Shown here one piece after another: positions 21,150 through 22,132 of a DNA stretch of 64,000 bases. The DNA is from Natronobacterium texcoconense (lineage in GTDB: Archaea > Halobacteriota > Halobacteria > Halobacteriales > Natrialbaceae). The translations under genes were made by a program, and so were the position numbers. A model generated the notes under the pieces. That model worked only from the letters and a program-made list of their open reading frames with translations. It made no database searches and was not told the origin of the DNA. The DNA lies in the NCBI RefSeq assembly GCF_900104065.1, contig NZ_FNLC01000002.1, forward strand, positions 974,995 to 1,038,994. The letters run 5' to 3'. Position 1 is the first letter of the stretch; each line of letters begins with the position of its first letter.

Positions 21150-21157
21150 GTTAGCGC
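21150..21157 (+). repeat. Left target-site duplication of the 967-bp cassette
   Basis: The octamer gttagcgc is repeated in direct orientation at 22125-22132 on the other side of the cassette. It starts 2 nt after the nrfD stop codon. Confidence 0.75.
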
Positions 21158-22124
21158 GAGAGTGTCATAGAACGGTTCTCGTGGTGTCTCTTTGGGCTGA
21201 ACTATCCGTTCACTATACTTGCGAACTGAACGGTGGTTTTGCATCAAATATAAACTATGTTCGTCGAGTCGTGCTGAATACACAGCGCGAATCGGTCAAT
21301 AGGGGCTCGCTGGTGAGCCCTACTCGATGTGCCGGGCAGGGGTGGAAACGCCAAATTCGTCGGCTGTGTCCGCAACAATTCCCTTCGCGGTATAAATATC
21401 CGGCTTGTAGTACAGTTCGTGGGTAACGTCGTGTGCTTCGCGGAGGTGTTCCCTGACGCGGAAAACATCTTGGCGGTCAAAATAATTCGGCGTATAGACC
21501 GTGAGGAGATAGTCGTCGTACATAGGAAGGTTCTCGTAGCCGAATGTCGTCATCGCCTTGACTGCCCAAATAGTTCCTGCTTCCGCGTCAGCGACGAGGT
21601 CAGGCCACAATTCGTCGATCCGCTCTGCTGACCCCGTGATTTGCCACTTCCCGATTGTCTTCTGCTCCTCGAGTGCGTCGCGGTCGATCTTCCGAACGGC
21701 TTCGCTGTCTGCTGCTGGCAAATCGTCGGACTGTACGTTCTTCGGCCGTGTAACGTCGTGTTCTGAAAAGTAGTCGTCACCTCCAATAGTCGGAGATTCA
21801 CTTACGTCTCTACTTCGTAGCCAATACTGCTCTGTCTCGGTGATTTCGAGCGGTGATTGCATGGTTACTGCCAACTCAAATCGGGTTTTGATGGAATACC
21901 AATGTTCGCCATCCGATGTGAAAGTGAAATTATATCCACAAGTTGGCCAGGTTGTCCATACGAATAGAGTCCGATAGATTTGCTGCAGCCACACTCTCTA
22001 TTCAGCACGCTATTCTCAACAGCTATCGGATGGATTGATCGCTACTCCGTTACCCACTCGACCAGTACTTACCGTTCGGCGAGCAATCGGTGGGTGGGTA
22101 TGCGAACTGTTCTATGACACCCTC
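21158..22124. mobile_element. 967-bp transposase-less insertion cassette (MIC-like)
   Basis: Terminal inverted repeats of 21 bp (21158-21178 and 22104-22124) match at 19 positions: gagagtgtcatagaacggttc against gagggtgtcatagaacagttc. They are flanked by identical 8-bp direct repeats. The interior is clearly more AT-rich than the neighbours, contains a further 11-bp inverted pair (cgtgctgaata, 21270-21280 and 21999-22009) and carries one gene, but no transposase. This is the layout of a mobile insertion cassette moved in trans. The donor IS family cannot be named; an 8-bp duplication fits several families. Confidence 0.8.
21320..21862 (-). CDS. DUF1917-like protein carried by the cassette
   Basis: This 180-residue protein begins MQSPLEITETEQYWLRSRD and ends with a domain containing GKWQITGSAERIDELWPDLV, LLTVYTPNYFDRQDVFRVRE and ELYYKPDIYTAKGIV. 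This pattern resembles DUF1917 (Bles03/C11orf68-like, sometimes called putative phosphothreonine lyase). That assignment is from memory of the family pattern and is moderate. Codon use is more AT-rich than in flanking genes. A TATA-like gatataat on the minus strand (about 21928-21938) supports the start at 21862; the open frame extends 44 codons further upstream. It is the only gene in the inverted-repeat cassette. Confidence 0.65.
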   Translation of the reverse strand: MQSPLEITETEQYWLRSRDVSESPTIGGDDYFSEHDVTRPKNVQSDDLPAADSEAVRKIDRDALEEQKTIGKWQITGSAERIDELWPDLVADAEAGTIWAVKAMTTFGYENLPMYDDYLLTVYTPNYFDRQDVFRVREHLREAHDVTHELYYKPDIYTAKGIVADTADEFGVSTPARHIE

Positions 22125-22132
22125 GTTAGCGC
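22125..22132 (+). repeat. Right target-site duplication of the cassette
   Basis: The octamer gttagcgc is identical to 21150-21157. Its tta is the reverse complement of the TAA stop codon of the tpiA-like gene, so the insertion occurred exactly at that stop and preserved it by duplication. Confidence 0.75.

Follow-up and report, generated by a model that had tools for sequence, protein, structure and literature searches.

Between two convergent genes of the haloarchaeon Natronobacterium texcoconense lies a 967-bp segment that carries one gene of its own and no transposase, which raises the question of what kind of mobile element it is and how its gene came to be inside it. We analysed this segment within a 64,000-nucleotide stretch of DNA (the window; contig NZ_FNLC01000002.1, positions 974,995 to 1,038,994), whose coordinates are used below unless another contig is named. 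The element spans 21158–22124 (no strand assigned) and was originally predicted to be a unit with 21-bp inverted ends and 8-bp direct repeats, an anatomy that we could confirm. The left terminal inverted repeat (TIR; GAGAGTGTCATAGAACGGTTC, 21158–21178, plus strand) and the right one (GAGGGTGTCATAGAACAGTTC, 22104–22124, minus strand) are of a type common to insertion sequences (IS) of the ISH11 group, and the inverted repeats extend to 22 nt (21157–21178 and 22104–22125) with 91% complementarity. The octamer GTTAGCGC stands on the plus strand on both sides (21150–21157 and 22125–22132); owing to an ambiguity at the outermost base pair, a reading of up to 10 bp (CGTTAGCGCG) is possible for the direct repeat. 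The terminal end motif occurs at only two places in the window, both at the element's ends. The predicted AT-rich interior was likewise borne out, with a G+C content of 51.4% in the element versus 63.9% in the whole window.

The neighbouring genes, NrfD-like on the left (PF03916; 19798–21147, plus strand) and triosephosphate isomerase-like (tpiA-like) on the right (PF00121; 22126–22803, minus strand), are both intact, as had been claimed, and the right copy of the octamer contains the TAA stop codon of the tpiA-like gene. Empty sites, which the original prediction proposed to look for in close relatives, were found in three genomes of the same genus (G001, G002 and G003), all of which have the nrfD/tpiA junction without the insert. 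If the insert and one octamer are taken out, the gene tails do not overlap as had been expected: the two convergent genes then end with their stop codons three bases apart, and the tails abut. Insertion at this junction is established by the 8-bp duplication together with the empty sites in relatives. With termini that are the inverted repeats of a known IS, a passenger gene without a transposase, and a target duplication with an empty site, the element fulfils the definition of a mobile insertion cassette (MIC; PMC3129680), and by its outward anatomy it is one. The mobility of this outer layer is well supported.

The passenger gene lies on the minus strand (21320–21862) and encodes 180 amino acids from an ATG; a GTG at 21994, giving 224 amino acids, is a possible alternative start. 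It is the single DUF1917-like gene that had been predicted, matching the DUF1917/Bles03 profile PF08939 with E = 1e-13 and 52.1 bits (curated cut-off, 23.1). Its dN/dS of 0.09–0.16 against six relatives indicates that it is under purifying selection; a gene in this state, in an element of 967 bp, rules out a MITE, which would be short and non-coding. The best relatives of the gene (72–83% DNA identity) come from several haloarchaeal families and have the gene alone in common, with unrelated flanks except in same-genus pairs. Remnants of the transposon ends or of the inner sites described below lie near only some of them, and no other species had this exact cassette between intact ends. The window genome holds a second, more distant copy on contig C3 (72%), next to a gene whose sequence reads like that of a replication factor C subunit. 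By family, the nearest solved structure is human BLES03, and it is barely matched: a comparison of the cargo with solved structures gave no strong match (1ztp, E = 0.23).

We found the terminal repeats of the element to be widespread. At up to three mismatches, 111 of the 125 genomes from the organism's family contained the end motif GAGGGTGTCATAGAACNGTTCG, and IS copies with the same ends, which the original prediction had named as a check, do exist: an IS of 1,068–1,069 bp that encodes a 330-residue DDE transposase (PF01609) and whose relatives are named ISH11, ISNpe17, ISHma6 and ISHla6, of the IS5 family, in PLSDB plasmid annotation. There are six identical copies of ISH11-group IS in G001 and nine close ones in G003; in the window genome (G000) there are only decayed ones, and no intact ISH11-type transposase was found there, so the 967-bp copy may now be stranded. 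One decayed ISH11-type transposase with stop codons lies at about 252.2–253.3 kb of its contig C2 (L258). Across haloarchaea, direct repeats of 7–13 bp flank 49 of 111 inward-facing end pairs, compared to 0.16% of shuffled flank pairs.

Elements with ISH11-type ends comprise IS copies, non-coding MITEs of 263–480 bp and gene-carrying cassettes. Long asymmetric ends are common to the MITEs and the cassettes of the window type. In the window, the A-type end (21158–21269, plus strand; 46 bits against the HMM for A) consists of the TIR and about 90 bp with a conserved CTATCCGTTCACTACACTTGCG, and the B-type end (22010–22124, minus strand; 51 bits against the HMM for B) consists of the TIR and a conserved CGCATACCC..CGAACGGTAAGTAC. 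Every element that scored well at both ends had one A and one B. Cassettes and IS thus share the TIR (GAGGGTGTCATAGAAC..TTC) and short direct repeats at the ends, whereas the IS encodes its transposase and has only a short TIR, and the cassettes lack a transposase but have the long A and B ends. Cassette interiors are mutually unrelated, with cargo that includes HAD hydrolase, SnoaL-like, cupin, HTH_63, BAT/HTH_10 regulator, DUF7344, cold-shock, MazG-like, HD-domain, alpha/beta hydrolase, AstE/AspA-like and HsdR-N nuclease genes. The outer layer represents a new family of mobile insertion cassettes in archaea.

Three individual loci illustrate the variety of these elements. The window genome has a second ISH11-type cassette, at about 92710–93504 of contig C5 (L058, 2211–3005), with a HAD hydrolase gene and an imperfect 8-bp direct repeat (ACTGCAAG/ACTGTAAG). 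In Halorarius halobius (L146, 3954–6505), a composite of the form B-A-[HsdR-N nuclease gene]-B-A has an 8-bp duplication (TAGAGTAG) at its outermost ends and shows how a gene can be captured by a pair of elements flanking it. In G001 (L066, 2441–3509), an ISH11-group IS is inserted in the terminal repeat of an adjoining lipoprotein-carrying cassette.

Within these outer ends, the DUF1917 gene is bracketed by a second inverted pair of sites, which the original prediction had missed and through which an odd single cassette becomes a member of a system of exchangeable ones. The left site, L, begins with CGTGCTGAATACACAGCGCGAATCGG (21270–21301, plus strand) and the right site, R, with CGTGCTGAATAGAGAGTGTGGCTGCAGC (21978–22009, minus strand); the inverted pair itself reads CGTGCTGAATACACAGCG at 21270 and, on the minus strand, CGTGCTGAATAGAGAGTG at 22009. 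The A-type end runs into the L-side half of a junction and the B-type end into the R-side half. In the window, the R-type pattern matched only at the R of the element, and no match was expected by chance. The same two site types occur in other haloarchaea, where L continues as CGCGAATGTGGCAC and R as GATGAGTKCAGCAC, with conservation over 30–45 bp; a search with R alone, allowing up to three mismatches, was positive in 49 of the order's 243 genomes. The fetched loci contained 67 distinct cassettes bounded by L and R, mostly with one gene (median 849 bp) and with mixed gene orientation (30 R-to-L, 21 L-to-R). Because the loci were fetched by motif, these counts are not frequencies. DUF1917, which had been expected to be an unusual cargo, is not unique in this role: more than 12 other protein families occur in cassettes with the same ends or with L and R. 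Viral carriers were considered and set aside: one IMG/VR contig (IMGVR_UViG_3300035698_004441; L281) has an ISH11-type end, and none has the exact L or R pattern.

We found L and R around unrelated genes in three settings: within transposon ends of two unrelated kinds, and in gene arrays. Next to ISH11-type ends, their distance to the TIR is nearly constant (about 107–116 bp), and the ISH11-group IS itself has neither site. In the second type of bracket, with the TIR GGCTCTGTTGAAAYC, they lie 36 or 41 bp away (also given as a range, 36–41 bp), and three of the five brackets inspected have clear 8-bp duplications. A gene for a DDE-type transposase (weak match to PF01609; L341, 882–1463) lies about 50 bp from a GGCTCTGTTGAAATC end and is a candidate autonomous partner of this second type. 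The window genome has two further L..R cassettes, one with a methyltransferase gene at about 850.6–851.5 kb of contig C2 (L057, 654–1523) and one with a lipoprotein gene at about 623.3–624.0 kb of contig C1 (L051, 1503–2184), whose brackets resemble the second type (GGCTCTGTTGAAAC). A nested transposon, in which L and R would be the TIRs of an element inserted in an ISH11-type MITE, was rejected: the DNA outside the sites is conserved and their distance to the TIR is fixed for each bracket type, which is not what a random target would give.

In the arrays (L376, L377, L378 and L386), which have no TIR, genes follow one another head to tail with L and R back to back between them, separated by a spacer, J, of 36 bp. 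The resulting L-J-R junction is an imperfect dyad of about 105 bp, and the spacer measures 36 bp at almost every junction, in different genera alike. The 19 non-redundant junctions fold into long imperfect hairpins, and Rfam contained no relevant family. Pairing between the two arms was slightly better within sites than across sites (20.4 versus 19.7 of 26; permutation P = 0.0014), an excess that relatedness could explain. In the brackets, the few bases adjoining L or R resemble the matching half of the spacer, suggesting that the joint lies within it.

Three genome comparisons put breakpoints inside L or R and are our chief grounds for concluding that cargo has been exchanged at these sites. 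First, G055 and G161, two species of one genus, have a second-type bracket in common, at one and the same position in the chromosome (8-bp duplication in G055, TCCCTTCC), with different genes inside: in G055 the interior is about 2.8 kb long and encodes a lipoprotein, an AsnC-type regulator and a HalOD1 protein, and G161 has about 0.5 kb of other sequence. The two are near-identical up to and including L, then differ until the middle of R, beyond which they agree again, with flanks that are 94–96% identical. Second, two loci of G003, from the window's genus, share an ISH11-type end that is 98% identical over the 45 bp outside L; they diverge inside L and then carry different genes. Third, G198 and G237, from different families, share a 1.5-kb array that is 97.6% identical up to R, with different DNA outside. 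The swapping of cargo at L and R is thus supported by comparison of sequences.

The reading that we consider probable has two layers, an outer bracket of the ISH11 group and an exchangeable L-DUF1917-R cassette within it. The outer layer would be a non-autonomous bracket, with an A-type end, a B-type end and a short target duplication, that a transposase of the ISH11 group (IS5 family) inserted in trans at nrfD/tpiA; both transposition in trans and the identity of the enzyme are inferred, the latter from the shared ends. In the inner layer, L and R would be the boundary sites of many haloarchaeal single-gene cassettes, whatever their bracket. The DUF1917 cassette may accordingly have passed from a haloarchaeal pool into an ISH11-type bracket and then, by transposition, to the nrfD/tpiA junction.

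What carries out the swap is less certain. The most likely agent is a site-specific recombinase that acts at L/J/R, for which a haloarchaeal tyrosine recombinase is a candidate, an inference in which our confidence is about even; no enzyme has been shown to act on L or R. A tyrosine recombinase (PF00589, PF02899) adjoins an array in G055, and 6 of its 57 homologues lie within 140 bp of an L or R site, whereas comparison loci had 7 sites per 173 kb. The tyrosine recombinases near L and R were not typed as IntI. Most of the homologues have no site nearby, and their link to L and R is therefore only suggestive. In its fullest form the proposal describes a haloarchaeal gene-cassette system, not related to integrons, in which single genes bounded by L and R would be cut out, kept in arrays and integrated at L-J-R by a dedicated recombinase, and moved between replicons and species in brackets derived from at least two IS groups. 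We put this forward tentatively, with slightly less than even confidence.

The exchange at L and R could instead be the work of the host's general homologous recombination, without a dedicated recombinase. This is a live alternative that we cannot exclude, and we rate it as possible but less likely than not. It is favoured by the conservation of L and R over 30–45 bp and by the absence of any consistently linked integrase. It is further favoured by a locus of G003 (L297, contig C1 at about 2.998 Mb), where an ISH11-type left end is combined with a right end resembling the second TIR type; the locus looks like the product of a reciprocal exchange, in which recombination through L would have joined two brackets. 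Homologous recombination leaves unexplained, however, the fixed 36-bp spacer, the conserved L-J-R dyad and the arrays.

An ordinary MIC with a fixed passenger, in which L and R are subterminal parts of the transposon ends (for example, transposase binding sites) and cargo varies because the cassettes originated independently, would fit the ISH11-type ends, the duplications and the cargo, all of which match the MIC definition, as well as the near-constant distance of L and R from the ISH11-type TIR. We nevertheless regard it as improbable. The same sites accompany an unrelated TIR at a different distance and arrays with no TIR, they are missing from the ISH11-group IS, and the breakpoints fall inside them. 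A plain MIC with static cargo had been our earlier working view and was abandoned on the evidence of the second TIR type, the arrays and the breakpoints. Among known MICs, the closest likeness is to MIC231 and the IS231-MIC231 group of Bacillus cereus (Chen 1999 and De Palmenaer 2004, cited in PMC2266710), which also have IS-type inverted ends, a target duplication, a passenger in place of the transposase and presumed mobilization in trans. The 967-bp element differs in being archaeal, in having ISH11-group ends and in containing an inner boundary pair that arrays and other brackets have as well. MITEs have been described in haloarchaea, among them one ISH2-type element with a non-transposase open reading frame and reported expression (PMC3119063); they too lack a transposase and have only terminal bases in common with an IS, but are mostly non-coding and no longer than about 520 bp, in contrast to the diverse, selected genes and exchange sites found here.

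The inner layer works like integron gene cassettes but is not one. Resemblance to attC-bounded cassettes, those of archaeal integrons included (PMC9668308), extends to the tandem single-gene units, the dyad sites of about 105 bp with their long imperfect hairpins and the cargo exchange at these sites; the tyrosine recombinase beside the array in G055 would also fit an integron. A true integron, with attC sites and an IntI integrase, is nonetheless very unlikely, and we rejected it on the attC core test, as none of the 19 L-J-R junctions had the core motif pair RYYYAAC/GTTRRRY. Further differences are the inverted boundary on each side of solitary cassettes, the mixed gene orientation, the transposon brackets and the lack of an identified IntI; the main text of a survey of the archaeal integrons reported so far does not mention Halobacteria (PMC9668308). 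Finally, chance repeats around a native gene with no insertion, for which nothing speaks beyond the shortness of the repeats, can be dismissed as refuted by the empty sites in relatives and the in-register duplication, by the excess of direct repeats at end pairs over shuffled flanks, by the ends shared with an IS and by sites L and R that are common to several families.

A search of the literature on MICs and haloarchaea returned no report of such cassettes, which is not proof of their absence since most subscription journals lay outside the search, and among the matches listed by full-text searches with the terminal sequence or the inner motif, all papers were unrelated.

Gene exchange is heavy among haloarchaea. 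A standard boundary site for swapping single genes in IS-derived carriers would give this exchange a concrete mechanism. It would also allow the mobile gene pool to be listed, each L..R pair marking a cargo gene; this cargo includes many regulators (BAT/HTH_10, DUF7344, AsnC), lipoproteins and small enzymes. If a dedicated recombinase were shown, the whole system would be of a new kind.
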